From: Kiloniella litopenaei
GTDB taxonomy: Bacteria > Pseudomonadota > Alphaproteobacteria > Kiloniellales > Kiloniellaceae
Direction: 5' to 3'
NCBI RefSeq assembly: GCF_000982415.1
Contig: NZ_LANI01000023.1
Span: 1 to 64,000, forward strand
Length of the DNA stretch: 64,000 nucleotides
This document shows, one piece after another, positions 38,210 to 54,581 of the stretch. The notes beneath the pieces were generated by a model. It made no database searches. It saw only the letters and a program-made list of their open reading frames with translations, and was not told the DNA's origin. Position numbers and translations under genes: made by a program. Each line of letters opens with the position of its first letter. Position 1 is the first letter of the stretch.

Positions 38210-38299
38210 TTTGGCTTGTGAGTTCCGCAGGCTGATGTGTTGGCCTGCGGATCACAGCTTGAGATTACGCAAAAATCTTGAGCGAGAGGAGTACGCCAC

Positions 38300-39253
38300 T
38301 TGAGAAGCTTCATTCTAAAACGTATGGCCACGGCAATTCCAACTCTGCTTGGTATGTCCATGTTGGGTTTCTTCATGGTCGCCTTGACCCCCGGCGATCC
38401 TGTCGAGATGGAATTGCGACGTCTTGGCGTTATTTTCACGCCGGATCAAGTGGCTGCCCTGCGTCAGGAATACGGCTTGGATCAGCCGATTTTCAAACGT
38501 TATCTCGACTGGTTAATACGGCTTCTTCATCTGGATATGGGACAGTCTATTGCTTCCGGGCGCTCCGTAATCGAAGAGTTTAAAACACACCTTCCCCTGA
38601 CCCTCACACTGGCAGCTTTATCCCTCGCGCTGTCGATTTTACTCTCGGCCTTGTTCGGGATTACTGCCGCGTTAACCCGGTCAAAAGTTCTGGGAAGTTT
38701 CGTTCAGCTCTTTTCCATATTTATGGTTTCCATTCCCTCCTTTTGGCTCGCTCTCCTCCTGTTATTTATTTTCGCCCTGAGCCTTGAATGGATTTCCCTT
38801 TTGGGATCAGGGGCATGGTATGACTTGATCTTGCCTATTTTAACACTTTCTCTCGGCAGTGCAGCAACAATGGGACGCTTGATGAGAGATAGAATTTTAG
38901 CTGTTATGAGCGAAGATTATATCCGTTTGGCAATCGCCAAGGGTCTTAATCCTGCCCTTATCCTGCACCGTCACATTATGAAATCTATCCTGCCACCTTT
39001 GGTGACCAACTGGGCTGTAACCTTTGGCGCATTGCTGGGCGGATCCGTTATTGTTGAAAATATTTTCAACTTGCCCGGGCTTGGGCAAATGGCTCTACAG
39101 GCTGTCTTCGAACGCGATTTTGCTGTTTTACAGGCTTATTTGCTTTTCATGGGCTTGATTTTTTTTACCAGTAATTTCATTGCCGATCTCCTGAACTATT
39201 GGCTGACCCCACATTTCAGGGAACAGAGCAGTCCTCAGGGGGCTATCGAATGA
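38300..39253 (+). CDS. ABC importer permease (DppB/NikB family)
   Basis: The protein has 317 aa from TTG 38300, supported by a strong GAGAGGAG nine bases upstream. It has six membrane segments. DppB-type marks are RMATAIPTLLGMSMLGFFMVALTPGDP at the N-terminus, RLMRDRILAVMSEDYIRLAIAKGL (the EAA loop contacting the ATPases) and VIVENIFNLPGLGQM. It is the first permease; its TGA overlaps the next gene's ATG. Confidence 0.92.
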   Translation: MRSFILKRMATAIPTLLGMSMLGFFMVALTPGDPVEMELRRLGVIFTPDQVAALRQEYGLDQPIFKRYLDWLIRLLHLDMGQSIASGRSVIEEFKTHLPLTLTLAALSLALSILLSALFGITAALTRSKVLGSFVQLFSIFMVSIPSFWLALLLLFIFALSLEWISLLGSGAWYDLILPILTLSLGSAATMGRLMRDRILAVMSEDYIRLAIAKGLNPALILHRHIMKSILPPLVTNWAVTFGALLGGSVIVENIFNLPGLGQMALQAVFERDFAVLQAYLLFMGLIFFTSNFIADLLNYWLTPHFREQSSPQGAIE

Positions 39254-40083
39254 AACTCTTGTCATTGCGTGCCACCCCTCTTGGCTTAAATACGGGTATT
39301 ATCCTGATTGGATGTTTGCTACTGGTCGCCTTCTTCGGGGAAAATCTGGCCCCGCATGATCCCAACAAAATGGATCTTGTCCGTCGGCTCGAGGGGATGA
39401 GCTGGACCTATCCCTTAGGCACTGATCATCTCGGTCGCGACGTGCTCTCGCGTTTGATGTCCGGGACACTGCTTTCCCTTGGGGCCGCAGTAATGACCGC
39501 CGTAAGTATCCTTCTTATCGCTTTACCAATCGGGCTTATATCCGCGATGTTCGGCGGCTGGGTGAACCACCTGCTCATGAGAATAACCGATATTTTCCTC
39601 GCCTTTCCCATGATCATTTTTTCATTGGTCATTATCGGATTTTTGGGGGCATCGCTTAACTCAGCCATCATCGGCGTCGCGCTGGCCTGGTGGCCCAGCC
39701 TTGCCCGTCTGGTTCACACCCTGACAACAGATGCTCTATCGAAAGATTTTGTACTGGCATCGCGTCAATGTGGCATAGGTCCGGTTAAGCTGGTCACAAG
39801 ACATATTCTCCCTCAAATATTACCTCCTTTGTTTGTTGTGATGAGTTTGGAAATGGCATCGATCCTGCTCGTGCTTTCATCTCTCAGTTTTTTGGGAATT
39901 GGAGCACAACCGCCCGAAGCTGAATGGGGGGCGATGTTAAACGAAGCACGCCCCTTTTTCACTGAGCGTCCGGGTCTGCTGCTTGCCCCCGGCCTGTTAA
40001 TAAGTCTCGCCGTGATGGGATTTAACCTGCTCGGTGAAGGAATAAGGCACAAGCTTGATAACAGGAGCCCTTTCCGATGGTAA
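39250..40083 (+). CDS. ABC importer permease (DppC/NikC family)
   Basis: The protein has 277 aa from ATG 39250 (ATGA overlap with the upstream permease). DppC features are LAPHDPNKMDLVRRLEGMSWTYPLGTDHLGRDVLSRLMSGT, ITDIFLAFPMIIFSLVI, the EAA-type loop TDALSKDFVLASRQCGIGPVKLVTRHILPQ and SFLGIGAQPPEAEWGAML. It is the second permease of the importer. Confidence 0.92.
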   Translation: MKLLSLRATPLGLNTGIILIGCLLLVAFFGENLAPHDPNKMDLVRRLEGMSWTYPLGTDHLGRDVLSRLMSGTLLSLGAAVMTAVSILLIALPIGLISAMFGGWVNHLLMRITDIFLAFPMIIFSLVIIGFLGASLNSAIIGVALAWWPSLARLVHTLTTDALSKDFVLASRQCGIGPVKLVTRHILPQILPPLFVVMSLEMASILLVLSSLSFLGIGAQPPEAEWGAMLNEARPFFTERPGLLLAPGLLISLAVMGFNLLGEGIRHKLDNRSPFRW

Positions 40084-40856
40084 AGACACCTCTTTTCAAG
40101 CTGGAGCATTTAACAATCTGTCAACAGGGAACAGATCGCAAGCCGATTATTGATGATGTCAGTTTTTCTCTGGCACAAGGACAACACCTTGGTCTTATCG
40201 GACGGTCTGGCTGTGGAAAGTCAGTTACAAGTCACGCTATCATGGACATACTGCGTCCACCACTTTTCAGGAAACAAGGGCGAGCTATTCTACAAGGACA
40301 GGATATCTATACTCTTTCCGGGACAGAAAAACGTCGCGTCCGGGGCCAAGGCATTTTCTGTATTTTTCAAAGCCCGGGAAGCGCACTTCATCCTGCCCTG
40401 ACCATCAAGCAACAGATGATGGAGATATCAACGGTTATCGATCAGGATCAAGCCGCGACGTCAGATGTTATTGAATACGCCTTTGACCGTATGCAATTGC
40501 CGATACGATGTCTGGAACAGTATCCGCACCACCTCAGTGGTGGCATGAAACAGCGTGTTTTAATGGCGATGGCTCTTTTATTGAAACCACGATTTTTGAT
40601 CGCTGACGAACCCACAACGGGGTTGGATGTTTTAACGGAACGGGACGTTCTTGATGCAATGGAAATCATGCTGGAAGAAACCCAATCCGCCTGCCTGTTC
40701 ATCAGTCATGACATCAGAATTGTCAAACGTGTCTGTCCTGATCTTTTGGTCATGCAAAATGGCAAGATCGTTGATCGTTGTACAAGGGACGAGCTCACCT
40801 ATCGCGACCGCGCTGAAACCACCCGGGAAATTATTGATGCCATGGGGGTCGCCTAA
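40077..40856 (+). CDS. ABC importer ATP-binding protein (DppD/NikD family)
   Basis: The protein has 259 aa. Walker A is GRSGCGKS, the signature LSGGMKQR, Walker B FLIADEPTTGLD, with the switch His in FISHD. It lacks the extended C-terminal oligopeptide domain of longer DppD proteins, as seen for NikD. It overlaps the upstream permease and ends directly against the second ATPase. Confidence 0.92.
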   Translation: MVKTPLFKLEHLTICQQGTDRKPIIDDVSFSLAQGQHLGLIGRSGCGKSVTSHAIMDILRPPLFRKQGRAILQGQDIYTLSGTEKRRVRGQGIFCIFQSPGSALHPALTIKQQMMEISTVIDQDQAATSDVIEYAFDRMQLPIRCLEQYPHHLSGGMKQRVLMAMALLLKPRFLIADEPTTGLDVLTERDVLDAMEIMLEETQSACLFISHDIRIVKRVCPDLLVMQNGKIVDRCTRDELTYRDRAETTREIIDAMGVA

Positions 40857-41594
40857 ATGAGTTTTCAGGTCGATAATCTGTCCCTGTCACTTGGCAGCGA
40901 TAAAATCTTGCACGATATCTCGTTCACACTGGAACGTGGTCAGGTAACAGGATTATTGGGCCGATCCGGTTGCGGAAAATCCACCCTGGCCAAGGCAATG
41001 GTTGGCATCCATCAAGTTAACCAGCCCTGCCTGAAAATAGATGGCACGATATTTCAGCCCAGGTTCGGTAAAACCGGGCACAAGATCCAATATATGTGGC
41101 AAGATCCCCATATGGCGCTTAGTCCGTTTTTATCCGCTGTTCGCTCTGTCGAAGAAGCCATGGAAACACAAAAAGGAACGACAAAAACACTACGGTATGA
41201 AAAAGCGCAAGACCTGCTACATAAGGTTGGTCTCACCCCTTCTCTTATGCAAAAGCGGCCTCACGCCTTGTCCGGCGGTCAATGTCAACGCATCGCCCTG
41301 GCACGGGCTATCGCTGCCCAACCCGAATTTCTGATTTTGGATGAACCTTTTTCCGCACTGGATCTTGTGACACAAAAAAACATTATATCGCTATTGAGCA
41401 ACCTGCAGCAGCTTTATAATTTCGGCTTGATGATCATTTCCCATGATCTTCGAACACTCTGGCGATTGGCGGATAAGCTCATATTGATTGATCAGGGACG
41501 CATTATCGAAGACAGACCAACGTCTGATTTCATCCATACCCCTCGTCACGCCTTAACGAAAACATTTGCCAGCTTCGCTCTGTCTGAAACTTAG
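40857..41594 (+). CDS. ABC importer ATP-binding protein (DppF/NikE family)
   Basis: The protein has 245 aa. Walker A is GRSGCGKS, Q-loop IQYMWQDPHMAL, signature LSGGQCQR, Walker B FLILDEPFSALD, and IISHD. It is the second nucleotide-binding subunit and the last gene of the five-gene importer. The short length again fits NikE-type more than DppF. Confidence 0.92.
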   Translation: MSFQVDNLSLSLGSDKILHDISFTLERGQVTGLLGRSGCGKSTLAKAMVGIHQVNQPCLKIDGTIFQPRFGKTGHKIQYMWQDPHMALSPFLSAVRSVEEAMETQKGTTKTLRYEKAQDLLHKVGLTPSLMQKRPHALSGGQCQRIALARAIAAQPEFLILDEPFSALDLVTQKNIISLLSNLQQLYNFGLMIISHDLRTLWRLADKLILIDQGRIIEDRPTSDFIHTPRHALTKTFASFALSET

Positions 41595-41695
41595 GTTAAT
41601 TTTTACCCAAGGCGTGAAGAGAGAAGTGTCAAAACTTACACGACGAACGATCAAACAAGGTATTAGAAAGCGTTAAGCCAAGTGACTTTTCTTGC

Positions 41696-42661
41696 TTAGA
41701 AGTCACCGGACAGAATTGCTTCAACCTTTTCCTGCACAGACAAGGCATCGGCAAAACTTGCAATTGAACAGTCTTTGCCCTCGTACCAAGCGATAAGATT
41801 ATCCAGCCCGCGCATGTAACCATGTTGCCGCGCATCTTCGATCTCGGACAGTTCCCGCACCCAGGTGTCACCTGTCGTTGAATAGAGCTGATCCCACATG
41901 GTCAGGCGATAGGACTTTTTCTCTCCCCAAACCGTAAACTCAACAACATCGGGACCAACACCGCCCGCGCTAGCGTGAAAAGAAACAGGGATATTATCGC
42001 AAGCAAGCTGGGCCTGTACATTTGTCTCGCAGGAAACATCATCTTCCGGATAAATCGCGCAGGTATTCAAAAGCTCGGCAGTACCCAAAAGACGTTCGGT
42101 CAGGTAAATGAAATGTGATCCCACTTCGCGCACAAAACCGCCTTCTGCGCGCTGTGACAACCAGGTCGCATCCTGTTGCCAGTCCCGAGGCCAAGGGGCA
42201 AAATGAAGACGAATATCGACAGAGTTGATCTTGCCCAGCTTACCAGCATCAATCTCAACTTTCATCAGGTCAGCGGCCTGAGAATTGGCAAGCGGATAAT
42301 TAACGGCATTTAAAACAGCTTTTTCCTTAAAGGCCGCAACCATTTCCTGTGATTGCTCAACGTCGATTCCCAATGGTTTCTCACAAAAGACTGCTTTTTC
42401 TGCCGCCGCAGCAGCCAAGGCATACTCACGGTGGGACGCTGGAGGGCTGGCAATATATACCACATCAACATGCGGGTGCTTGATGACTTCTTCGACAGTT
42501 CCAACGACTTCCAAAGCCGGATAGTTTATCCGAGCATCGGACCGCGCAACATCACTGGGGTCCCAGGCAGCAGCCAAATTAAATTCACCATGCACAGACA
42601 TATTAGTCAGCATACGGTTCCCCATAATGCCCAAACCAATAAAACCAATCCCCAACGCCAT
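41696..42661 (-). CDS. Gfo/Idh/MocA-family oxidoreductase
   Basis: The protein has 321 aa from ATG 42661 (MALGIGFIGLGIMGNRM), with GAGAA upstream; a longer frame to 42712 lacks family support. The Rossmann fingerprint is GFIGLGIMGNRM, followed by VYIASPPASHREYALAA and CEKPLG, with a C-terminal GFO/IDH domain (EVGSHFIYLTERLLG). It is an NAD(P)-dependent sugar, inositol or amino-acid-derivative dehydrogenase; the substrate is unknown. Upstream lies a TTGGTTTGACCA operator-like site in the 65-bp repeat. Confidence 0.88.
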   Translation of the reverse strand: MALGIGFIGLGIMGNRMLTNMSVHGEFNLAAAWDPSDVARSDARINYPALEVVGTVEEVIKHPHVDVVYIASPPASHREYALAAAAAEKAVFCEKPLGIDVEQSQEMVAAFKEKAVLNAVNYPLANSQAADLMKVEIDAGKLGKINSVDIRLHFAPWPRDWQQDATWLSQRAEGGFVREVGSHFIYLTERLLGTAELLNTCAIYPEDDVSCETNVQAQLACDNIPVSFHASAGGVGPDVVEFTVWGEKKSYRLTMWDQLYSTTGDTWVRELSEIEDARQHGYMRGLDNLIAWYEGKDCSIASFADALSVQEKVEAILSGDF

Positions 42662-42717
42662 TTCTCTATCCCGCCTGTATTTTCGAACCCAAAGAGTTAA
42701 TTCGCCCCCCAAGAGTC

Positions 42718-42783
42718 CATTTTGAAAGAAGACAGATAATGCGTTACAAAAATTGGTTTGACCAGTTTTAAGTTTGTTAAATT
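42718..42783 (+). repeat. 65-bp direct repeat, copy 1
   Basis: This nearly matches 49309-49375, with only a few changes. It includes CAGATAATGCGT and the operator-like core TTGGTTTGACCA. It lies just upstream of the Gfo/Idh gene and downstream of the amine-module terminator. Confidence 0.85.
42753..42767. promoter_or_regulatory. FadR/UxuR-like operator TTGGTTTGACCAG upstream of the Gfo/Idh gene
   Basis: The half-sites TGGT/ACCA around a three-base centre follow the TNGTNNNACNA rule of FadR-type GntR regulators. It lies about 95 bp ahead of the Gfo/Idh ATG. A near-identical core occurs at 49351 and at 61050. Confidence 0.5.
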
Positions 42784-42843
42784 ATTCGTGACAGGAAAAA
42801 CTGCAGTTTTATTGCTTTCACAAAATGGTTCTTTCAAGGAGGC

Positions 42844-42878
42844 AAAAAAAAAGGGGATGGCGCAAATACGCCCTCCCC
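42844..42878 (-). terminator. Terminator of the amine-module operon
   Basis: On the minus strand the hairpin GGGGAGGGCG / CGCCATCCCC (one mismatch) is followed by a T-run of nine. It lies 54 bp past the aldehyde dehydrogenase stop and closes the GS-like to ALDH operon. Confidence 0.8.
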
Positions 42879-42931
42879 AAGGTTTCCCATCCCTGAGGGG
42901 GTCCTCAAGGGGGGGGGACAAAGGACCGGCC

Positions 42932-44305
42932 CTAATTAATTGAGTAGGATTTTGGGCGTGTCACTTGATGAAACCCCAGCTCGGACAAAGAACAGCCCCG
43001 ACCAGAATTCTTTACACCAACCCAGGCCAATGCAGGATCCAGATAATCACAACGGTTAACAAACACCGTTCCGGCTTGCACAGCCCGAGCCAGCTCAGCT
43101 GATACCGTTTTGTCCGTTGACCAAATTGAAGCAGACAGGCCAAACTGGCTGTCATTCATAGCACGCACGGCTTCTTCGTCGCTATCCACTGGCATAATGC
43201 CGACAACAGGGCCAAAAGTTTCCTCTGTCATCACCGGCATATGGTGATTCACAGTTATCAATGTCGTTGCTGGTAGGTAGAGCGAAGAGTTATCTGGTTC
43301 ATTTATCCCTGTAACAATTTCTGCGCCTGCAGAAATCGCTTCTGCAATTTGCTTGCGAATACCATCTGCTGCCGACGCTGAAACAACAGGTCCCAGTGTA
43401 GTTTCACTCTTGAACGGGTTCCCCAGAATTTGTGTTTTGCGTGTCTCATCCTTAAATCTGGTGACAAATTTATCAAACAGACTTCGCGCAACATAGATCC
43501 GTTCAATTGAACAACAACTTTGGCCACTATTAAAGAATGCACCATCAACCAAAGAAGCAACGGTATGGTCCAGATCGGCATCTGCTCTTACATACGCCGG
43601 ATCTTTCCCCCCCAGCTCCAGTGTGACTGGCAAAAATTTTCCTGCCGCTGTCGTTTCAATAGCCTTGCCCCCCCTTACTGACCCAGTGAACGCAATAAAA
43701 TTGACCGACATTTGCGTGATCCATTGAGCCACTTGATGATGAGTAGCCAAAACCGACTGAAAAACGCCTTCTGGCAATCCGGCCGCCCGCAAGGCCTGGT
43801 GAATGCGCTCACCACAAAGCGCGGTTTGACCCGCAGGTTTTAAAATTACAGTATTCCCCGCCAAAAGTGCCGGTACAATTGTATTTATCGCGGTAAGGAA
43901 TGGATAGTTCCAGGGAGCTATAACCAGACACACGCCGTGTGGAACCCGATCAATATAACGGGTTGAATTCTCACTCTCGATCTCAAGAGGATGCAATCCC
44001 TTTTGCGCCTTAGACACCATATAACGAGCGCGTTCCTCTAGCCCCAGCAATTCTTTTCCTGAGAAAGAAACCGGCCGCCCCATTTGCCAAGTAAGTTCTG
44101 ATGCAATTTCATCCGACTTACGAAGCAGTTCATCAATAAACCGTTCACAGATGATTACCCTGTCCCGTAACGGTGTTGCCTGCCATGCCCCTTGTACCGA
44201 TTGCGCTTTTATTATCGTTTCTGCCGCATCTTCATCGGTCAAATATGCAATGCACTTGAACTCAGAACCATCGACAGGAGAAATAAGCTTAAAATCAGTA
44301 TTCAT
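42932..44305 (-). CDS. NAD(P)-dependent aldehyde dehydrogenase
   Basis: The protein has 457 aa. The ALDH core is visible: VIAPWNYPFLTAINTIVPALLAGNTVILKPA, FTGSVRGGKAIE, the catalytic Glu in LELGGKDPAYV and the catalytic Cys in FFNSGQSCCSIERIYV, then EETFGPVVGI. It is the last gene of the operon, coupled to the decarboxylase by ATGA. In a gamma-glutamyl amine route it would oxidise the aldehyde formed from the amine; the exact aldehyde is inferred only. Confidence 0.93.
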   Translation of the reverse strand: MNTDFKLISPVDGSEFKCIAYLTDEDAAETIIKAQSVQGAWQATPLRDRVIICERFIDELLRKSDEIASELTWQMGRPVSFSGKELLGLEERARYMVSKAQKGLHPLEIESENSTRYIDRVPHGVCLVIAPWNYPFLTAINTIVPALLAGNTVILKPAGQTALCGERIHQALRAAGLPEGVFQSVLATHHQVAQWITQMSVNFIAFTGSVRGGKAIETTAAGKFLPVTLELGGKDPAYVRADADLDHTVASLVDGAFFNSGQSCCSIERIYVARSLFDKFVTRFKDETRKTQILGNPFKSETTLGPVVSASAADGIRKQIAEAISAGAEIVTGINEPDNSSLYLPATTLITVNHHMPVMTEETFGPVVGIMPVDSDEEAVRAMNDSQFGLSASIWSTDKTVSAELARAVQAGTVFVNRCDYLDPALAWVGVKNSGRGCSLSELGFHQVTRPKSYSIN

Positions 44306-45639
44306 GATGCCGCCTCTTCAAGAGAGACTGCAAAATCTGAAACATGTTTCTCATTCAATTTGGGGGATAAAAGTACAGTTCGAAGATACATCTGGTCACG
44401 CCATTGCGAAACGCTTGTCCAAAGACCACCCTCTCGCGTCAGGTTTTTCTGAATCTCAATTGCATCCAGCTTGCCACCCGGACGAATGACCTGAAGATTA
44501 AGGTCAGGAACATGCGCCGGAGCTACTGTCTTACAATCCAGCAAGCACTTGTAAAAATTCTGCGTCAGAGCGATGGATGCATCAATCTGTTGGCCAATGA
44601 CATCTGTTCCCAGCGCTTGTAACAAAGTCCACAAAACCACGGCATCAGCCGGCCTGCTACCTTGAAGCCCCCAGAAACCTCTGTGGGTCTCACCTGAAAT
44701 CGAATAGGGCATGCTCACACCCAGCTTCCTGTCGAAATCATCTTTTCCGGAAATAAGTACGGCGGCAGAAACCCGTGGGACATACATCCATTTTTGTGGA
44801 CCGACAACAACCGAATTGGCCCCGCTAAGACCAGCCAAAAGTTTCCGATGTGATTTAGAAAACATCAGCGCCCCACCATAAATGGCATCAACATGATGCC
44901 ATGCACCGTACTTCTGACAAAGGCTGGAAATCCCAGAAATATCATCCACAGACCCGTGGATAGTTGTCCCCAACACACTCGTAACAACACAGTGTGCAGA
45001 ACCGGCTTTACCACTTAGCGATTGATCAAGGGCATCAATATCAATTGCCCCGGCATCATTGCATTTGATCAAAGATATCTGGCTTTTTGGAATTCCTAAA
45101 ATTGCAGCCGCTTTCTTTAGCGAGGCATGTCCGGACTCAGGTAACAGCATATGTACATTGGTTCGTTCAACACCCCCATCATAACCTCCAACAGCGCAAA
45201 AGAGAGCTGTTAGATTGGCGATAGATCCGCCACTTGCCCATGTCCCCCCCCAATCGCTCCCCAGATTAAGTCGATCAAGGAACAATTCGATCAGGCTTTC
45301 TTCAATATTACTTGCGAAGGGCGAAAGCTCTCGGAACAACATGTTCTGATTAAGAGCCGAAACAATCGTTTGTGTCAAAACTGCATAAGGATGAGGCGCC
45401 GTATCCATGTGCCCTGACATCAGTGGAGAATCCAGCCTTGTGGCATTTTCAAGAATAAGGTGCCAAAGCTTTGGCAAAGCCCCGGCACCTTCTCCAACGG
45501 ATGGCACAAGAGGGAGTAGATCCACCCCGCCGGGCATCGGGCGAACTGCATGAAACAAGCTTTGCAGGATGCCACCAACCTCCTCGGCCAGATCACGCAG
45601 CTCAATATTCGACGGAAGGAAACTTGTGTCATTCGTCAT
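44302..45639 (-). CDS. Group II PLP-dependent amino acid decarboxylase
   Basis: The protein has 445 aa from ATG 45639; a TTG at 45660 overlaps the upstream stop. The fold is that of GAD/DDC decarboxylases: GTWASGGSIANLTAL, HASLKKAAAILGI, WHHVDAIYGG (cofactor Asp) and VVGPQKWMYVPR (Schiff-base Lys). The usual DPHK has become GPQK: the His before Lys is Gln and the Asp is Gly. The substrate could be an aromatic or acidic amino acid, making the amine passed to the GS-like ligase. Some such proteins act as amine oxidases or aldehyde synthases, so this is open. Confidence 0.8.
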   Translation of the reverse strand: MTNDTSFLPSNIELRDLAEEVGGILQSLFHAVRPMPGGVDLLPLVPSVGEGAGALPKLWHLILENATRLDSPLMSGHMDTAPHPYAVLTQTIVSALNQNMLFRELSPFASNIEESLIELFLDRLNLGSDWGGTWASGGSIANLTALFCAVGGYDGGVERTNVHMLLPESGHASLKKAAAILGIPKSQISLIKCNDAGAIDIDALDQSLSGKAGSAHCVVTSVLGTTIHGSVDDISGISSLCQKYGAWHHVDAIYGGALMFSKSHRKLLAGLSGANSVVVGPQKWMYVPRVSAAVLISGKDDFDRKLGVSMPYSISGETHRGFWGLQGSRPADAVVLWTLLQALGTDVIGQQIDASIALTQNFYKCLLDCKTVAPAHVPDLNLQVIRPGGKLDAIEIQKNLTREGGLWTSVSQWRDQMYLRTVLLSPKLNEKHVSDFAVSLEEAAS

Positions 45640-45656
45640 CTTATAAATTCCGTTGT

Positions 45657-46079
45657 TCAAGCAGTGCTAAACTGCGTTTCATCGACGTCATCACCTGCAT
45701 TCCAGCTGGATTGCCAGGCGTGTTGTTCACAGACCAGACCTTCGCGAAAATAGAAATACTCTATCCCACGTTCGAAAACAGTTTTCCCGGTATCGGGGTC
45801 GGTGTATTTGCTGTCCCAGGTTGTAACAATGCAATCGTTCGTATGAGCAATGTACTTTTTGTCTATCTGTAAATCAGTCGCGAACGAAAACCACTTCCCT
45901 GGTCTTTCCCGTAAAGCGTCACCAGACTGCACCTGATTCGCCCCCCAATGAAGTACAGCATCATCTGTATATCCCTTTGAAGCCGCGTCCCCATCATGTG
46001 CTTTCCATATGGCTTCCAAATCTTTAACCCACTGTTTGGGGTCTTTGGGCAAATGGGATTGTTCTGTCACATTTGACAC
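45657..46079 (-). CDS. SnoaL/NTF2-like protein
   Basis: The protein has 140 aa from GTG 46079 with AAGGAG. The NTF2-like pattern WVKDLEAIWKAHDGDAASKGYTDDAVLHWG, WFSFATDLQIDKKYIAHTNDCIVTTWDSKY, then GIEYFYFREGLVCEQHAWQSSW gives a small cone-shaped alpha+beta barrel. It may be an enzyme or a binding subunit; small NTF2-like proteins also serve in ring-hydroxylating oxygenases, but no partner is here. It is the second gene of the operon. Confidence 0.7.
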   Translation of the reverse strand: MSNVTEQSHLPKDPKQWVKDLEAIWKAHDGDAASKGYTDDAVLHWGANQVQSGDALRERPGKWFSFATDLQIDKKYIAHTNDCIVTTWDSKYTDPDTGKTVFERGIEYFYFREGLVCEQHAWQSSWNAGDDVDETQFSTA

Positions 46080-46103
46080 GATATTTCTCCTTGTTGTTAT
46101 TGG

Positions 46104-47456
46104 CTAGATATCAAGTAACAGCATACGCCGTTCGTAATCTGTCACAGCTGTACGTGCCGCCAGAACAGTCTGGCGCCCATAATTGGCATAGTGTTGCTGA
46201 AATGTTTCTCCAAACATTTTCCTGACAAAAGACGAGTTCGTGAATGCTTCCACCGCCTCGTCCAGTGTTTGTGGTAAGCGGGGAGCATCCGCCCCTTCGT
46301 AAGCATTACCAACAACAGGATCCCCAAGTGGCTCCAGCCTGTCTTCAATCCCCTTGATGCCCGCCGCGAGCATTGCTGAATAAGCGAGGTAGGGATTAAC
46401 ATCGGCACCCGGGATACGGTTTTCGATCCGTCTGGCATTGCCGCTGCCAACCAAACGAAAAGCGACCGTTCGATTATCTTCCCCCCAAGTGACGGTATCT
46501 GGTGCAAAGGTTCCTGGACGCAACCTTTTGTATGAATTTGTGTTCGGCGCAAAAAACAGGAACACATCACGTACAAAATGTGTCATCCCAGCTAAAAAAT
46601 GTCGCATGATATCAGACGATTCACTACCGTCCGAACCCGATGAAAATGCCGATTTCCCGGCCTCATCTTCCAGTGACATATGTATATGACAGGAACTGCC
46701 CCCAAGCGTGTGATCAAGTTTGGCCATAAACGACGCAACAAGCCCCTGTTGCAGTGCGATTTCTTTTGCAGCATATTTAAGAAGCATATGGTCATCTGCT
46801 GCCTTGATAGCCTCTGCGTATTTTAATATGACTTCAACCTGACTGGCTGAATATTCTGCCTTGAACATCTCGACAGCAACACCCGCGGCTTCAAGGTGAG
46901 TCCTCAAGGGGCCAAGGTAATGCTCGTCTTCCGACGTACGCATTAATGTCTCTGGATGTAATGTCTGATGTTTTCCCTTAAGGTTTACGAACCCTTTTTC
47001 AAAGACGCTGTCCGGCGTTTCTTTCAGAATGTAAAACTCCAGTTCAGAAACGAAATTTGCCTTTAGGCCCAATCCATGAAGACGTTCATTCATACTCTTG
47101 AGCAATGTTCGTGGTCCAACATTGACCTCTGTACCATCTGCATCAATAACATCCCCCATGACAAATGCTGTTTTTTCAAACCACGGGTAAAGTGTAAGGG
47201 TCGACATATCCGGGCGCACCAGCATATTCGGATATCCGTTCTCCCAACTAGAGAGTTCATACCCTTCATCCAGCGAATGGTCGTGCCCCCAGGTCAGAAC
47301 AACTGAACAAGTTCCGACACCGTTCTTCCCTGCCTCGATAAAATGCCGAGCGGTCATACGTTTCGCGACAAGGCGGCCTTGCATATCAGGTGTTGCAACG
47401 ATCACAGTTTCTATTTCATTGGCCTTAACCAGACCTTCCAGTTCCTCGAGTTGCAT
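46104..47456 (-). CDS. Glutamine-synthetase-family gamma-glutamyl-amine ligase (PuuA-like)
   Basis: The protein has 450 aa from ATG 47456 with a strong GGAGGG. GS catalytic marks: VSELEFYILKE, GGSSCHIHMSL, NSYKRLRPGTFAPDTVTWGEDNRTVAFRLVG and RIENRIPGADVNPYLAYSAMLAAG. Length and motifs fit the PuuA/GlnT branch that joins glutamate to an amine with ATP, rather than GlnA. It leads the operon GS-like, SnoaL-like, decarboxylase, ALDH, and is divergent from the FadR-type regulator. The amine is not known. Confidence 0.85.
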   Translation of the reverse strand: MQLEELEGLVKANEIETVIVATPDMQGRLVAKRMTARHFIEAGKNGVGTCSVVLTWGHDHSLDEGYELSSWENGYPNMLVRPDMSTLTLYPWFEKTAFVMGDVIDADGTEVNVGPRTLLKSMNERLHGLGLKANFVSELEFYILKETPDSVFEKGFVNLKGKHQTLHPETLMRTSEDEHYLGPLRTHLEAAGVAVEMFKAEYSASQVEVILKYAEAIKAADDHMLLKYAAKEIALQQGLVASFMAKLDHTLGGSSCHIHMSLEDEAGKSAFSSGSDGSESSDIMRHFLAGMTHFVRDVFLFFAPNTNSYKRLRPGTFAPDTVTWGEDNRTVAFRLVGSGNARRIENRIPGADVNPYLAYSAMLAAGIKGIEDRLEPLGDPVVGNAYEGADAPRLPQTLDEAVEAFTNSSFVRKMFGETFQQHYANYGRQTVLAARTAVTDYERRMLLLDI

Positions 47457-47509
47457 TTGCCCTCCTCGCGAAATATTATAAGGTTTACGAATGTTATATG
47501 GTCTACTAA

Positions 47510-47529
47510 AAGGTATAAAAACATACCTT
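47510..47529. promoter_or_regulatory. Operator AAGGTAT-N6-ATACCTT, copy 1
   Basis: A perfect 7-6-7 inverted repeat lies between the divergent GS-like operon and the FadR-type regulator gene. A second copy with core GGTAT-N6-ATACC is at 48362. The likely binder is the regulator encoded at 47571. Confidence 0.75.
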
Positions 47530-47570
47530 AAATAACCCGTCAAGCTGAAATGTGCGTCAGGAGTTCATAG

Positions 47571-48332
47571 ATGAATAAACACAAACCTGAGGAAGCCAGC
47601 CGAAAGGAATCTTTCGCACAGACCATACTCGTCAAACGAACGCCCGGGGCAGCAAATCTCTTTGAAGAAACTGTAGGGCGACTTGGAAAGTCGATAAAAC
47701 TCGGTCTGGTGTCCCCTGGTGAACAACTCCCTCCTGAACGAGAGCTTTCAGAAATGATGGGCATAAGCCGTACCACGGTCAGATCCGCTATTCAGGTACT
47801 TGTAGAGGGCGGTTTTCTAACAGTGAAACGCGGACGCGGCGGGGGAACATTCGTTGCAGAAAAACCACCCCAGTGGTCATTAGAAACTTCTCTGGATTCG
47901 CCAGAGTGGGATGAAGTACAGGTTAAACACTTTCTGGATAAGCGTTTTATTATAGAAACAGGCGTCTGCGAGCTCGTTTGCACACGCATTGATGACACTG
48001 GCATTCGTGCTCTTCGTGAAAAGGTAGGAGAGATGACCGAACTCGTTGGTGACTTCACCGCTTTTCGCGCCAGTGACATCCAGTTCCACATTCTTTTGGG
48101 GGAATTAACCGGAAATTCCGAACTTGTTCAAATGTGCATCGACACACAATCAGAACTAGATGAACTCCTGAATCTCCTCCCCCCCAGCAAGGAAGCGCTT
48201 TTGAATTCCAACCAGCAACATGCCGATATTGTCGCAAGAATTGCAAAGGGCGACGCCGTTGGCGCACGACAGGCTATGGGACTACATGTCTCTGGTACCA
48301 CCTCATTCCTCGGCGGTCTCCTCCCCCGATAA
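47571..48332 (+). CDS. FadR-type GntR transcriptional regulator
   Basis: The protein has 253 aa. The winged helix at about residues 25-105 contains GEQLPPERELSEMMGISRTTVRSAIQVLVEGGFLTVKRGRGGGTFVAE. An FCD ligand domain follows, with the pattern ETGVCELVCTRI, FHILLGELTGN and HADIVARIAKGDAVGARQAMGLH (metal-binding His). It probably controls its own promoter, the GS-like operon and the amidotransferase, because inverted repeats of one sequence sit at each. The inducer may be the amine or its gamma-glutamyl form. Confidence 0.9.
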   Translation: MNKHKPEEASRKESFAQTILVKRTPGAANLFEETVGRLGKSIKLGLVSPGEQLPPERELSEMMGISRTTVRSAIQVLVEGGFLTVKRGRGGGTFVAEKPPQWSLETSLDSPEWDEVQVKHFLDKRFIIETGVCELVCTRIDDTGIRALREKVGEMTELVGDFTAFRASDIQFHILLGELTGNSELVQMCIDTQSELDELLNLLPPSKEALLNSNQQHADIVARIAKGDAVGARQAMGLHVSGTTSFLGGLLPR

Positions 48333-48361
48333 AATACTAAAGGTTGCCACTTCCAATAAAA

Positions 48362-48377
48362 GGTATTATATCATACC
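48362..48377. promoter_or_regulatory. Operator GGTAT-N6-ATACC, copy 2
   Basis: An inverted repeat with the same half-sites and spacer length as the site at 47510, located about 20 bp ahead of the amidotransferase ATG and directly before its AAGGAGAT ribosome site. Confidence 0.7.
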
Positions 48378-48395
48378 ATAAAAGGAGATAATGGT

Positions 48396-49121
48396 ATGAA
48401 ATCTGTACTCGTAATTAGACATGTATCTTATGAGGACCTTGATGGCTTCGATATAGAGTTCCGCAATGCAGGTTATAAAGTCGCTTACCATGATGCTTGG
48501 TATGACAAAGATCCAATAGATGCACTGGAACCAGATATTTTAGTGGTACTCGGTGCCCCTTGCGGTGTTTATGAAACAGAAAACTTCCCCTTCATACAAG
48601 AAGAGCTGAAAGCCGTCGCAGAGCGCGTAGAGGCTGGCAAACCTGTGCTTGGAATCTGCTTTGGTGCGCAGTTGCTAGCTCAGGCTCTTGGGTCAACGGT
48701 CTATGTAGGAGATTCGTTTGAATTCGGTTGGTCCCCACTGACACTGACACAAGCTGGTCGACATTCACCTATCAATCACTATGCGACCCAAAACCGCGAA
48801 GTTTTTCATTGTCATGGCGATACTTTCAAGCTTCCTGAAGGAGCAACGCTATTGGCATCAACCCCCTCTTACAAGGTTCAGGCTTTCTCGTATGGTCCGC
48901 ATCTGGCGATGCAGTTTCACGGGGAAGTAACTGAAAGGGGCCTGCGTCGATGGTTCATTGGCCATATTGGCCGGATCCATTCGATGTGTGGTTTACCCCA
49001 TCTTGTTAAAGAGACAGCCCGTGTAAGTCCCACATTGGAAGCTCTTCACCGCAGCGTTTTACAAGATTGGCTTGCTCAACATGAGAACCCCGAAATCCAG
49101 CAGTTTGTGGAAACCGCGTAA
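48396..49121 (+). CDS. Class I glutamine amidotransferase-like hydrolase
   Basis: The protein has 241 aa. The GATase fold carries Cys88 in GICFGAQLLAQALG and a His-x-Glu in MQFHGEVT near 177, so the triad is present. It resembles GuaA-like stand-alone amidotransferases. In the aniline pathway a similar enzyme (AtdA2) hydrolyses gamma-glutamylanilide; in the putrescine pathway PuuD removes the glutamyl group. Here it may release product from a gamma-glutamyl intermediate. It has its own operator and AAGGAGAT. Confidence 0.8.
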   Translation: MKSVLVIRHVSYEDLDGFDIEFRNAGYKVAYHDAWYDKDPIDALEPDILVVLGAPCGVYETENFPFIQEELKAVAERVEAGKPVLGICFGAQLLAQALGSTVYVGDSFEFGWSPLTLTQAGRHSPINHYATQNREVFHCHGDTFKLPEGATLLASTPSYKVQAFSYGPHLAMQFHGEVTERGLRRWFIGHIGRIHSMCGLPHLVKETARVSPTLEALHRSVLQDWLAQHENPEIQQFVETA

Positions 49122-49240
49122 ACGCTGAACAAGAAAGAAGATGCCGCCTCTGCCCACATCTACTGGATGTCACACCTAATGGACAATGCCACAATCCAAG
49201 TACCAGAGGTTTTTTTAGGGGATGATTTCAAGGAATCAAC
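49122..49240. other. Intergenic stretch after the amidotransferase gene
   Basis: No ORF is visible. The stretch ends with TACCAGAGGTTTTTTT, which resembles the right half of a decayed terminator like the one at 49391-49412. Confidence 0.35.
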
Positions 49241-49286
49241 GGTATCGGAGGAGGGACTTGCCCCCGACACGCGGATTATGATTCCG
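49241..49286 (-). pseudogene. Remnant of tRNA-Met 3' half
   Basis: These 46 bases match the 3' half of the intact tRNA-Met at 49422 (CCA end, T arm, variable loop, anticodon CAT) almost perfectly, but two bases of the T-loop are lost and the D-arm side is degraded. It cannot fold as a tRNA. It suggests a partial duplication or an attachment-site scar. Confidence 0.8.
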
Positions 49287-49308
49287 ATGCAATCTGAAAC
49301 CAAAGGTA

Positions 49309-49375
49309 CATTTTGAAAGAAGACAGATAATGCGTCACAAAAACTGGTTTAACCAGTTTTAAGTTTTTAAAATTT
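49309..49375 (+). repeat. 65-bp direct repeat, copy 2
   Basis: A near copy of 42718-42783 in the same orientation. It includes the palindrome AAAACTGG-TTTAA-CCAGTTTT. It stands between the tRNA remnant and the tRNA-Met terminator, with no gene in reach for it to serve as promoter. Confidence 0.85.
49346..49366. promoter_or_regulatory. Orphan FadR/UxuR-like operator in repeat copy 2
   Basis: AAAACTGGTTTAACCAGTTTT is a perfect 8-5-8 inverted repeat with the TGGT/ACCA half-sites seen at 42753 and 61050. No gene lies downstream in a fitting direction. Confidence 0.45.
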
Positions 49376-49385
49376 GAGTAAAAAC

Positions 49386-49417
49386 AAAAAAGCCCTGGTG
49401 TTTACCAGGGCTTTTTT
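49386..49417 (-). terminator. Terminator of tRNA-Met
   Basis: AGCCCTGGT / ACCAGGGCT stem with a GTTT loop, flanked by A and T runs, five bases from the tRNA 3' end. It can work in both directions. Confidence 0.9.
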
Positions 49418-49421
49418 GAAT

Positions 49422-49498
49422 TGGTAGCGGAGGAGGGACTTGAACCCCCGACACGCGGATTATGATTCCGCTGCTCTAACCAGCTGAGCTACTCCGCC
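49422..49498 (-). tRNA. tRNA-Met (anticodon CAT)
   Basis: This 77-nt gene has an encoded CCA. Acceptor GGCGGAG/CTCCGCT, D arm GCTC...GAGC, anticodon stem GCGGA/TCCGC around loop ATCATAA, T loop TTCAAGT. The pattern is the elongator type (it lacks the three G-C pairs of the initiator anticodon stem). Confidence 0.95.
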
Positions 49499-49776
49499 AT
49501 AAGGCTTTGACAGTGCCGTTTTGATTAACTGATTCGTCAACCATCCGCGCTGTAAGAGGGGTGATAATGCCATGACACAAAACTGTCAATAGCGGAGTGA
49601 TGCGCTTTTTATTTTTTTTGAAAATTCACCCCTCTGCCCTAACCTACAATCTATACAAAGTCCCACAGACAACGAATGTAAAGAGCTGTAATATTAGCTT
49701 GTATCAGTCTTTCCAGATTACTAACCTCTTCCACACACCTTCTTGGGCGAAAGAAAAATCGTAGCAAAGTGATATC

Positions 49777-50280
49777 ATGCGAAACATCTTCAAAATGTCG
49801 CAAAATACCTGGGAACACCATTCCAATCCTTGGTCTGGCTGGACCCGTGTAACCACAGGATGGCTCATATTTCCGGCAATATGGTCTCACGCAGCATGGG
49901 GCTGGACTGTCGCGGGTTTTCTTTTATGCCTCTTTGCCTTCTGGATGTATCTCAACCCTCGCATTTTCCCCAAACCCCGTCACACTGACTTCTGGGCTTC
50001 GCAGGTCACCTTTGGTGAACGCATCTGGCTCAAGGAAATTCCCTTCGACGGGCTGGATGAACTTCTTGATATGCACAGATCCCAAACACGCGCCTTGGGC
50101 ATCCTGGCCGGGTTTGGATTTTTTGGCGGCATTATCACGGCCTACCTGAACCTGTTCTGGCCAACCATGTTTTTTGGTTTTGCCATGATCATCGGAAAGA
50201 TGTGGTTTTGTGACCGTATGGTCTGGCTTTTTAACGACGCCATTGAAATAAACCCGAAGCTTGCCGAGTGGATTTATTAA
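49777..50280 (+). CDS. Small multi-pass membrane protein
   Basis: The protein has 167 aa. A conserved-looking N-terminus EHHSNPWSGWTRVTTGWLIFPAIW leads into about four membrane segments (GWTVAGFLLCLFAFWMYL; GILAGFGFFGGIITAYLNLFWPTMFFGFAMIIG). It resembles the DUF6653 group (HxNPWSxWTR), but I hold that weakly. There is no catalytic motif. It stands alone, divergent from tRNA-Met and convergent with the YcaQ-like gene. Confidence 0.6.
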   Translation: MRNIFKMSQNTWEHHSNPWSGWTRVTTGWLIFPAIWSHAAWGWTVAGFLLCLFAFWMYLNPRIFPKPRHTDFWASQVTFGERIWLKEIPFDGLDELLDMHRSQTRALGILAGFGFFGGIITAYLNLFWPTMFFGFAMIIGKMWFCDRMVWLFNDAIEINPKLAEWIY

Positions 50281-50317
50281 GGCCTTTTTCCTCTAAGCTA
50301 GAAGTAAGATGATAGAG

Positions 50318-51538
50318 TTAACCTGACTTCAGATAATCATCTGCAAAGGTCAGACTTTCACAGCCAACAAAACGCCTGATCCGATCCAGTTCGGATGTTA
50401 GGGCACTCAAGCGTCCTTTGCTGGCCCGCACTTTGGGCTCAAACCACAAACCTTTGACAAACAGCTCTGTTCCCTGTCGTTTCATATCAATCCGGCCAAT
50501 AAGATTTTCCCCTTCAAGCAAAGGGAAGACATAGTATCCATACTGTCGCTTTGCTTCTGGGACAAAGACCTCAATACGGTAGTAAAAATCAAAGAGACGT
50601 TCGGTCCGCTTTCTATCCCGGATCAAGGGATCAAAAGGGCTAAGCACCCGGACACGCTTCGGGGCAGTCGGCAAGCTATCCAACTGACTTGTAATGCCCT
50701 CAAAAGCATAGACTTTACGGGGCTTGCTGCCATCAGCAGATAACACTTCAACCTCGGCAAGCTCCTTGTCTAGTCTGTCTTCGCACCAGATCTTGGCTTC
50801 GGCAGGTTTAATGCCATCCCAAAAAGCAGCGAGTTCCCCCGGCGTCGCAAAACCGAGTTTCTCCATCGCGGACCGGCACGACCAGTCGATAAAGCTCTCA
50901 TGGTCGATATCTTGGGAAAGGACTTCTGATGGAATAATTCTGTCCGTTACGTCATAAACCTTCTGAAAGCCGTCGCGCCGATCAACAGACAAAGCCCCGG
51001 TACGCCACAAAAATTCCAACGCAGTCTTGGAAGGATGCCAATCCCACCAGCCCTGATTTTTCTTTTTTGTATCCCCCGTATTTGGCCCTTTATCAGGTTT
51101 TGTCATATCCCGGGAACGGGTGGGGCCATTCACACGAATATGGTCCAGAACGGCCCGAAAACTTTCTTCAAAGCCTTCCCGACGCCACTTGCGCCACCGT
51201 TCCAGCAAATAAGCTTCTGTGCGTCCAAAACGGTATTTCCAATAGGGGTAAAAGAGCGTCGGGATAACCGATGCATCATGCGTCCAGTTTTCAAACAGCG
51301 AACGGTCTTTTTCCAAAAGCTGGTCAAAATGCTTTTTCTGATAGGTCTGGTTTCGGGAAAAGAGGATCATGTGATGCGCGCGCTCGACAGTATTGATACT
51401 GTCGATCTGCACAAAACCCATGCGTTCTATCAAGTCCAGCAATGCGGATTTACTCTGTTTCGAAGCAGGGTTATCGCATAAACCCTGTCGCTCCATAAAC
51501 AGTCTTCGGGCTTGGGAATTGCTTATCTGAGAGACCAT
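50318..51538 (-). CDS. YcaQ/AlkZ-like DNA glycosylase (winged-helix, HTH_42)
   Basis: The protein has 406 aa. YcaQ proteins unhook DNA crosslinks and excise alkylated bases. The catalytic Q-x-D motif is present as Gln44 and Asp46 (FVQIDSINTV), followed by ERAHHMILFSRN. Winged-helix repeats and the C-terminal VRVLSPFDPLIRDRKRTERLFDFYYRIEVFVP region fit the family. It stands alone; no SOS box is seen. Confidence 0.85.
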   Translation of the reverse strand: MVSQISNSQARRLFMERQGLCDNPASKQSKSALLDLIERMGFVQIDSINTVERAHHMILFSRNQTYQKKHFDQLLEKDRSLFENWTHDASVIPTLFYPYWKYRFGRTEAYLLERWRKWRREGFEESFRAVLDHIRVNGPTRSRDMTKPDKGPNTGDTKKKNQGWWDWHPSKTALEFLWRTGALSVDRRDGFQKVYDVTDRIIPSEVLSQDIDHESFIDWSCRSAMEKLGFATPGELAAFWDGIKPAEAKIWCEDRLDKELAEVEVLSADGSKPRKVYAFEGITSQLDSLPTAPKRVRVLSPFDPLIRDRKRTERLFDFYYRIEVFVPEAKRQYGYYVFPLLEGENLIGRIDMKRQGTELFVKGLWFEPKVRASKGRLSALTSELDRIRRFVGCESLTFADDYLKSG

Positions 51539-51638: not shown

Positions 51639-52793
51639 CTAAGCGGCACCCTGTGCTTCTTCATTCAAGGCTTGCTTTTCCGTAGAGACAATCCAGCCGC
51701 CGCCCAACACACGGTCGCCATCATAAAAAACAGCGGCCTGCCCCGGTGAAATACCATACAGCGGATCATGCAAGACGACACGGGCACCACCCATGCCCAA
51801 TCCCTGCCCTTCGGGGTACACTGTGGCCGGGGTTGGTTTCGATGCAGACCGAAGCTTAACAGTGACTTCGCGACCACGATCATTCAAAGGCTCTGCCAAC
51901 CAGTTTAGCTCATTCACAAGAACAACATCACGGGAAAGCGCTTCTTTCGGGCCGACAATAACCTGCTTTTTCTCTGCATCGAGGCGAATAACATAGATAG
52001 GATCACTGGTTCCACCAACGCCGATGCCACGACGCTGCCCAACCGTATAGTTAATAATACCGTCATGCTGACCCAGAACTGTGCCATCAAGGTGCACAAT
52101 ATCACCCTTGTCCAAGGCACCAGGACGCAGACGTTCGACCACACGAGCATAGGACCCGTCCGGCACAAAGCAGATATCCTGACTATCCGGCTTATCGGCA
52201 ACGGATAGCCCCATTCGTTCAGCAATCTTGCGGGTTTCCGTTTTTGGCAAACCGCCGAGGGGGAACCGGAGGAAATCAAGTTGATCTTCGGTTGTTGTGA
52301 ACAGGAAATAGGTCTGGTCTTTTGTATCGTCAAAAGCCCGGTGCAGTTCCGGACCATTTGGACCATCAATGCGCTGTACATAATGGCCTGTTGCCATCAC
52401 ATCTGCGCCAAGGTCCTTGGCCATCGCCAGCATGTCTTTGAATTTGACTTTCTGGTTACAACGCACACAGGGAATCGGGGTTTCACCGCGCATATAGCTA
52501 TCAGCGAAATCTTCCATCACGTCCTGTTTAAAGCGTGATTCATAATCCAGAATATAGTGCGGGAACCCATAACGATCCGCCACTGTACGGGCATCATAAA
52601 TATCCTGCCCGGCACAGCAAGCACCGCTTTTCTCCAAAGCAATTCCATGGTCATAGAGTTGAAGGGTAACGCCAATAACGTCATAACCTTCTTCTTTCAG
52701 CATACACGCGACAACAGAGCTATCGACACCACCGGACATGGCAACAACAACGCGTGTATCTTTAGGTTCTTTATCTATACCAAGAGAATTCAT
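51639..52793 (-). CDS. mnmA: tRNA-specific 2-thiouridylase
   Basis: The protein has 384 aa from ATG 52793 ([26 protein letters not shown]), the usual alphaproteobacterial start; a longer frame to 52871 is not family-like. MnmA puts sulfur on U34 of Lys, Glu and Gln tRNAs. Motifs: the PP-loop [19 protein letters not shown] with the first active Cys, [27 protein letters not shown] with the second active Cys, and GQRRGIG. Confidence 0.96.
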
Positions 52794-53077
52794 GAGTTCG
52801 CTTATCTCGTATAACTTGCGATGACGCCAACCGCCAAAGCCTGTCTGATGGCTATGTAAGGCCATCCCCAAGGGTAATCAAGTCTGAATTGATCAGTACC
52901 TATCGACTGTTCTCACCTTAAGCAGGATTTCGACAGTACTTCAAACATTCAACTTTTCTAAAAATTTCGGGCAACATAACAGATAACGATGATCTTGTTA
53001 ATGCCCGGCCTCACAGATCACCTGTGCCATAATTGCATGCGTTATAACAACAATCATTGAGTTGATTAATCCGTTAG

Positions 53078-54466
53078 CTACGACGTCACCTCACACAATC
53101 GTCTTAAAACAATCGGATCGCGAACAAGATCAATTAACAGTGAAAAATGTCCCTTGCCACTTCTGAGAAACCTATTTTCCGGGGGAACCCGCCAACGGTT
53201 TGCAAGATCAAGCCCGCCTTTATAGGGCGTTAGCTTGTCTGCCTGCCCTAGCATAAAAATAACCTTTTCCGGTGGAACAACAGAATGCCCCGTTGGCTGT
53301 ACAAAGGGCAGACACTTAAGATAATCAGCCTCGCGCCAACCCAATTCATAAAGTTTTTGAGGGATCCCAAGAGCTTGGGTCAAACATCCTTTTAGCAATA
53401 CGTCCAATACATTTCCACTCGTACCAATTAAAAGAAGCGAGTCCGGTTTCAAATCATTACGCCAATTCCAGGCAACAGACGCATAAAGTTGAGCTGTTAA
53501 TGCCCCTAAACTCACCCCACCTAAAACAACAGGACCACCCCGTTGTTGGCGCACCCAGTTCATCAACACGGAAATATCTGAGATCCACTGCCTGTAGAGC
53601 CTGATCAGCCCCATGGGGCCTTCGCTGAAGACCTGTTCCCCGGCATAAAAACCCGGTGTCTTTCGAAAACCATGACCGGGTTGTTGTATACGCAAAACGC
53701 GAAAACCAGATTCAGTCAGCGCACAAACGGGATCTTCCCTATCCTGAAAACAGTCCTGTTCAACTCCCAGACCTTGAAGGAAAATTATTGTCGGAGCTGA
53801 CGGATTCAACCCTGTAAGTGGTTCATAACACCGTACCCAGTTTTCAGCACCAAATTCAGAATCATAATGCAACCAATATTCACGGCCATATACACCGTGA
53901 ATTGAGTGTGACGAGCGAACTGCTGGCAGCTTTTTGGGGGGATGATAGAAACTTTCTACATCATCCAGATAATCGCCAAAAATTCCAAAGAACTCCTTTG
54001 GGGTTGGCAGTTGCCATCGAACAGGTGAAACTTCTTTGCGAATTTCCTTAAAAAGTAGAGAAGCTTCCAACAACCTTTGTTGTGTTTCCTGTCGACGCCT
54101 TTCAGCAAAAACACGCCCGGCAATACTCAGACCATCGCCAAACATGACGATTTTCCATCTCTCAAAAGCTGACATTGCAACGTGATGACGGATACAAACT
54201 TCGGTCAAGGCCTTGTCACAACTATCGGGCGATACCCGTTTCAGGCCAAGATCACTGATCAGTCTGCTGGCATCCCCTTCACTTGTAATCGCCGTCTGTA
54301 AAACGCGGGTCAAAGGGAATAAATATTTAACGATTAACCGAAGAGCCAAAGCATCGAACCAAGGACGAGCAAGGTATCGACCAACTGTTCCTCTGATCAT
54401 TGGGTAGGTTTGGGGTGGAGGCAAACACTGAGCAGAACTATGGATACGTTCTCTGTTTACTTGCAC
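53078..54466 (-). CDS. Alpha/beta hydrolase, unusual family
   Basis: The protein has 462 aa from GTG 54466 with GAGAGGA upstream; ATG 54400 has no ribosome site. The hydrolase core is in the C-terminal half: FLQGLGVEQ (oxyanion region), GGVSLGALTA with nucleophile Ser, LGQADKLTP with Asp and GKGHFSLLID with His, so the triad is complete. The N-terminal ~180 residues are helical and not known to me; it may be like the ABHD18 type. There is no signal peptide. The substrate is unknown. Confidence 0.75.
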   Translation of the reverse strand: MQVNRERIHSSAQCLPPPQTYPMIRGTVGRYLARPWFDALALRLIVKYLFPLTRVLQTAITSEGDASRLISDLGLKRVSPDSCDKALTEVCIRHHVAMSAFERWKIVMFGDGLSIAGRVFAERRRQETQQRLLEASLLFKEIRKEVSPVRWQLPTPKEFFGIFGDYLDDVESFYHPPKKLPAVRSSHSIHGVYGREYWLHYDSEFGAENWVRCYEPLTGLNPSAPTIIFLQGLGVEQDCFQDREDPVCALTESGFRVLRIQQPGHGFRKTPGFYAGEQVFSEGPMGLIRLYRQWISDISVLMNWVRQQRGGPVVLGGVSLGALTAQLYASVAWNWRNDLKPDSLLLIGTSGNVLDVLLKGCLTQALGIPQKLYELGWREADYLKCLPFVQPTGHSVVPPEKVIFMLGQADKLTPYKGGLDLANRWRVPPENRFLRSGKGHFSLLIDLVRDPIVLRRLCEVTS

Positions 54467-54581
54467 TTAGAACATTCCTCTCTAGCCTGTGGCCTTGATT
54501 AAGCACACCCCCCAGAAATATAATAACAGAAACATAATAACACAGTTTTTATTTTCTAATCAGAACTTAAAGCGCTCTCAC

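Follow-up and report, generated by a model that had tools for sequence, protein, structure and literature searches.

Gamma-glutamyl amine catabolism of the Puu type employs a glutamine synthetase (GS)-like ligase, a class I glutamine amidotransferase (GATase)-like protein, an aldehyde dehydrogenase (ALDH) and a regulator of its own. We examined a related set of genes in the first 64,000 nucleotides of the Kiloniella litopenaei contig NZ_LANI01000023.1 (C16), hereafter the window, where a six-gene cluster lies between a gene for a Gfo/Idh/MocA family oxidoreductase (Gfo/Idh) and a tRNA-Met gene, and is flanked by direct repeats. As in the Puu-type pathway, a GS-like ligase, a class I GATase-like protein and an ALDH are clustered with their own regulator; unlike that pathway, there is no amine oxidase among the six genes, which encode instead a pyridoxal phosphate (PLP)-dependent decarboxylase and a SnoaL-like protein. 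The amine module, regulator and amidotransferase that the original prediction had placed between the repeats were all recovered as described by Pfam analysis (Table 1). A literature search covering titles and the openings of abstracts brought up no account of this gene set that we recognised, though one may exist.

Two described systems resemble the borders of this cluster. Homology-facilitated illegitimate recombination (HFIR) has been reported in Streptococcus pneumoniae, Acinetobacter baylyi and Pseudomonas stutzeri; HFIR and single crossovers have also been examined in Escherichia coli conjugation. HFIR joints mostly carry 3-10 bp of microhomology; where a single crossover had taken place, the flanks were left in duplicate (PMC3240628). 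The locus studied here appears to share with these events a homology on one side combined with a short-match joint on the other, or a duplicated homologous flank, and neither event needs a recombinase gene. It differs in the size of the insert, ~6.4 kb against an average of ~1 kb quoted for HFIR (PMC3240628), and in being reconstructed from genome comparison alone. In the type VI secretion system effector-immunity arrays of Vibrio cholerae, displaced relics lie beside new cargo, and the authors propose an HFIR-like mechanism (PMC5361080). Here too, new cargo stands beside a conserved anchor, and a relic of the former arrangement has been displaced to the far side of it; unlike in the arrays, the relics are the 3' part of a tRNA and a gene upstream region rather than immunity genes, and one insertion is seen per genome.

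We propose, with a probability of roughly 0.58, that the cluster is a horizontally acquired pair of catabolic operons which entered the Gfo/Idh-tRNA-Met intergenic region by one-sided homologous recombination, either as HFIR or as a single crossover. The insertion is apparent from comparison of the window's own genome (G000; 4.31 Mb, 85 contigs) with eight congeners (G001-G008), all of which were examined. The site is empty in five of these (G003, G004, G006, G007 and G008), where the Gfo/Idh gene, one repeat, the terminator and tRNA-Met are contiguous, the very arrangement that the original prediction had suggested looking for in relatives. It had also held that the outer flanks would be contiguous without the module and one repeat copy. 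Indeed, when the flanks were joined on one repeat copy, they aligned in one piece across the joint to G008 (84%), G007 (82%), G003 (79%) and G006 (70%); they aligned to G004 in pieces of the same order, and to G005 in two pieces owing to another insert. The repeat of G004 was assigned by position, its match in the genus search being weak (E 0.0016). In G005 (L053 4826-6602) a single repeat is followed by this other insert of ~1.78 kb and then by the terminator and tRNA. The insert encodes a GntR/UTRA regulator and a SIS-domain protein, the latter found in one of the nine genus genomes (G005 only) at E <= 1e-20. Neither a Gfo/Idh gene at E <= 1e-60 nor a repeat (best E 4.7) was found in G001 and G002. 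Since the site is empty in congeners, and since the ligase (at E <= 1e-100) and the decarboxylase (at E <= 1e-50) were found in none of the eight, the simple reading that the cluster was gained in this lineage is well supported.

The nature of the repeats sets them apart from the ends of a mobile element. They had been described as one 65-bp sequence occurring twice in the same orientation; two such copies are present, but they span 75 nt (42709-42783 and 49300-49374) and are 89% identical, not exact. A search of the whole genome at E <= 1e-3, which answered the question of further copies, returned these two places only (3.6e-47 for the query itself, 3.4e-22 for the second), and the repeat is therefore neither a chance match nor an interspersed element. 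A dispersed element was rejected on this ground. An attachment site was likewise rejected, the repeat being the DNA directly upstream of Gfo/Idh, in a single copy, in all six congeners that have this gene. A core of 16 nt (AAATTGGTTTGACCAG) is identical in the left copy and in these six congeners and is altered only in the right copy; a longer, 21-nt form of it, compared by eye, is kept in four of the six and not in G004 and G007. At the right copy, the homology continues with leader sequence of Gfo/Idh (AATCTGAAACC, which G008 shares). Gfo/Idh still has the left copy before it as its upstream region; the right copy is a drifting duplicate with no gene of its own orientation adjoining it. Over a core of 67 nt, the two copies agree at 61 positions, and each agrees with the single copy of G008 also at 61 of 67; as the copies match each other no better than either matches G008, the duplication is not recent. 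The repeats look like duplicated native gene-control DNA. A TGGT-N3-ACCA palindrome in this DNA resembles the sites of FCD-type GntR regulators. A role of the core as a many-site operator was not supported: up to three mismatches, it gave 12 matches in the genome against 6 for a reversed control, three of the 12 being the repeat copies themselves, with one site at two mismatches outside them.

Read leftwards, the parts follow one another as intact tRNA, terminator, right repeat, ~9 nt of leader, tRNA 3' remnant, cluster, left repeat and Gfo/Idh. The remnant of the tRNA-Met 3' part, which had been noted at the right inner edge and is confirmed here, has the same orientation as the intact tRNA, carries a 2-nt deletion and is fused at ~49291 to the fragment of Gfo/Idh leader. 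In the alignment, this joint seems to fall where both putative parents have a CCG-CTG-like stretch. The intact tRNA is still followed by its terminator and the Gfo/Idh upstream DNA, which separate it from the remnant on the cluster side. A tRNA island would have a restored tRNA 3' end at one end and the displaced 3' end beside the original downstream DNA at the other, and this arrangement was not found. Of the proposed cassette inserted at a tRNA site, the insertion is supported but the tRNA as target is not, since the tRNA has not lost its terminator and the repeat belongs to the native DNA upstream of Gfo/Idh. In line with the earlier statement that no integrase is present, a tyrosine integrase (PF00589) search gave five matches in the genome, all on other contigs and none on C16; serine recombinases and transposases were not searched.

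Ancestry of the flanks was assessed by tree tests on eight blocks. G000 and G005 are grouped by block 38000-41590 (100/100; four rows only), by block 49777-51538 (100/99) and weakly by block 51639-52871 (78/85). Gfo/Idh plus its leader rejects this grouping (approximately unbiased test, p-AU 0.023; 0.0018 and 0.0008 for its halves), so that its history conflicts with that of the closest blocks to its left and right. Identity to G005 in 150-bp windows is 91-97% at 41100-41550 and 71-87% from 41550 to 42750. Such discordance fits an import of Gfo/Idh together with the cluster, for which these trees and identities provide moderate evidence.

In the proposed event, the donor DNA would probably have come from a relative in which the cluster already stood at this place, with the relative's own Gfo/Idh upstream region on one side and tRNA-Met on the other. 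On one side, the donor would have paired with the recipient via the shared Gfo/Idh and upstream sequence; on the other, a broken donor end inside tRNA-Met would have been joined to the recipient Gfo/Idh leader at a few matching bases, as in HFIR. In a close alternative, the same joint would first have closed the fragment into a circle, which a single crossover would then have brought in. Both routes would leave the order observed, with upstream copy 1 next to Gfo/Idh, followed by the cluster, the tRNA 3' remnant, the leader with upstream copy 2, the terminator and the intact tRNA. The cluster is real, horizontally gained and not recent, and its border is largely explained, both edges being duplicated native DNA. 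A comEC-type gene was considered as a sign of natural uptake and given little weight, as it is also present in 10 of 14 controls, E. coli included.

A number of observations weigh against this account or against its HFIR form. Local mosaicism is common on this contig: of 54 1-kb windows, 29 have G005 and G008 closer to each other than G000 and G005, and in 8 the margin exceeds 3 points, the one starting at 42001 showing the third-largest such difference. The grouping G000+G005 is also rejected by block 53078-55946 (p-AU 0.039) and is neither recovered nor rejected by block 55943-56400 (p-AU 0.448); all p values are uncorrected for the number of tests. When G005 is left out, Gfo/Idh does not reject G000+G008 (p-AU 0.112). 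To the right of the tRNA, the intergenic stretch 49600-49750 has an identity of 84.7% with G008 against 66.0% with G005 (~66-69% with G005, G003 and G007), which suggests local recombination between species; because this stretch is unusually G008-like, crossovers may have occurred on both sides, with the structure made in another lineage. The G004 assembly is just 77% complete, and absence from it is weak. The cluster was seen beside this tRNA in no genome other than the window's own. Traces of the terminator at both inner edges, halves of which would mark an insertion point inside it, were unconvincing, the best among seven comparisons per edge standing at 30 of 1000 mononucleotide shuffles. 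As to the form of the event, a count in E. coli is in favour of the single crossover, as 56 of 60 clones carried the duplication product and not that of HFIR (PMC3240628); in that form Gfo/Idh need not be foreign.

Two illegitimate events in succession might also have produced the structure: ~184 bp (leader, upstream region, terminator and tRNA 3' part) would first have been duplicated in tandem, and the cluster would then have been inserted into the terminator region of the left copy. The remnant and the tRNA are indeed spaced as in a short tandem duplicate (offsets 182 and 184), the decay of the remnant is similar in size to the divergence of the copies, which an older duplication could bring to 9-11%, and the Gfo/Idh discordance is not unique in the contig. 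Two events would nevertheless be needed, with the insert landing between duplicate parts; the duplication by itself was seen in none of the eight congeners, and the discordance would be left unexplained. We regard this sequence of events as unlikely, yet deserving of consideration.

An integrase-mediated island at tRNA-Met whose integrase has since been lost could claim the tRNA-adjacent position, the 3' remnant and the second cargo at the same spot in G005. A simple integrase insertion is disfavoured because the displaced 3' end, and not the intact tRNA, would then be flanked by the terminator and upstream region; together with the native origin of the repeat and the result of the integrase search on the contig given above, this makes such an island improbable. 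Least credible is an ancestral cluster deleted from the congeners by recombination between the repeats. That deletion would restore the congener order, but several independent losses would presumably be needed, the ligase and decarboxylase were found in no congener, and the single copies of the congeners carry no trace of the remnant in the alignment. Nor was the decarboxylase detected at E <= 1e-100 among the 14 further genomes of the family, where G012 has a relative of 34% identity (1.8e-52). We thus consider this history very improbable.

One-sided recombination at this place implies that direct repeats, a tRNA, a tRNA relic and an acquired operon, the signs usually taken for an island, do not always need a site-specific mobile element to come about. 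Where the repeats lie and how far they have diverged helps to separate an attachment site from a duplicated native flank. More speculatively, and we hold this to be doubtful, the Gfo/Idh-tRNA-Met interval might serve the genus as an integrase-free cassette port, in which operons with their own GntR-type regulator would be swapped between species via the upstream region and the tRNA as anchors, and entry could leave behind a duplicated anchor and a tRNA relic.

Table 1 Features of the cluster and its borders (positions in the window)
Feature	Position	Strand	Basis or remark
Gfo/Idh/MocA family oxidoreductase, native left neighbour	41696..42661	-	Pfam PF01408, PF02894
Left repeat copy	42709..42783	+	native Gfo/Idh upstream region; 16-nt core AAATTGGTTTGACCAG
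Probable terminator of four-gene operon, stem-loop and T run	42844..42878	-	fold; not in consensus scan
Aldehyde dehydrogenase	42932..44305	-	PF00171
PLP-dependent decarboxylase	44302..45639	-	PF00282
SnoaL-like small protein	45657..46079	-	PF12680
GS-like ligase, probable gamma-glutamyl amide ligase	46104..47456	-	PF00120
Candidate operator AAAGGTATAAAAACATACCTT between ligase and gntR genes	47509..47530	.	pattern search
GntR/FCD-family regulator	47571..48332	+	PF00392, PF07729
Second candidate operator AAAGGTATTATATCATACCAT before amidotransferase gene	48359..48380	.	pattern search
Class I GATase-like protein	48396..49121	+	PF00117; NF005458 253.5 bits, barely above cut-off of 250
Decayed tRNA-Met 3' part, ~50 nt	49241..49290	-	92% identical to tRNA
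Right repeat copy with ~9 nt extra Gfo/Idh leader	49291..49374	+	two changes in palindrome
tRNA-Met intrinsic terminator	49385..49418	-	15-pair stem
Intact tRNA-Met (CAT)	49422..49498	-	keeps its own terminator

Judged from the protein families, the six-gene set probably breaks down an amine. The ligase would likely cap the amine with glutamate and the GATase-like protein would cleave the resulting amide; the decarboxylase would likely supply the amine or an aldehyde, and the ALDH would oxidise the aldehyde. Against the gamma-glutamylputrescine synthetase model NF045547 the ligase scored 202.8 bits, far from the cut-off of 650, so that it was not recognised as a PuuA-type enzyme. The ligase, decarboxylase and ALDH reached no NCBIfam cut-off among the models listed (for the ALDH, the best 25 of 45). 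The base composition is not decisive for a foreign origin: G+C is 47.9% in the cluster against 46.6% in the window, and at third codon positions the six genes have 41.3-46.1% and the five genes to their left 46.2-51.6%, the cluster values falling within the 39.7-58.9% spanned by 18 measured genes.

A candidate operator of the pattern AAGGTAT-N6-ATACC occurs at two places in the cluster, one before the ligase and gntR genes and one before the amidotransferase gene. Allowing up to two mismatches, a similar pattern gave four matches in the window (the two sites on both strands) against 0.21 expected. Eight of 90 loci match; three have the pattern at matching places, namely the Nitratireductor soli locus L066 (amidotransferase side) and the loci L067 and L068 of two Actinomycetota metagenome-assembled genomes (ligase side); the remaining five are further copies of the window sequence itself. 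It was not found in L063, a locus of G035, which belongs to the same order as K. litopenaei. Unrelated bacteria share this amine-type cluster, which is conserved, self-regulated and, with its candidate operator, open to assay.

The same six genes in the same order were found in N. soli, at 53-66% identity per protein. In G035 the cluster is rearranged, with the amidotransferase gene beyond the ALDH gene and identities of 43-55%. The two Actinomycetota genomes have the regulator, ligase and SnoaL genes at 52-66% and a distant decarboxylase at ~24%; within their loci, of 14.7 and 7.3 kb, no ALDH or amidotransferase match was found at 1e-5. None of these four loci yielded a tRNA. Across 60 other genomes of the order, the decarboxylase was found in two (G035 and G047) at E <= 1e-100. 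In the plasmid collection searched, 36 records match the ligase at E <= 1e-80, all at below 60% identity and the best listed at 42%, with no sign of recent plasmid carriage. The N. soli cluster stands beside open reading frames (ORFs; L066 752-4819) that by eye resemble a polyamine-type ATP-binding cassette transporter and beside a second amidotransferase-like gene of 43% identity (L066 12200-12937), neighbours that give a hint of an amine substrate.

Two congeners differ further in the surroundings of tRNA-Met. In G006 (L057 16390-16466) a second tRNA-Met gene is found at a distance of ~9 kb from the first one. The 2.4 kb in which it lies do not match the window and also encode what, judged by eye from the ORF, is a Sel1-like repeat protein. 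In G001 (L060 2444-6950), which lacks Gfo/Idh, the neighbours of tRNA-Met resemble, by eye, a flavin mononucleotide-dependent lactate dehydrogenase, RtcB and RtcR.

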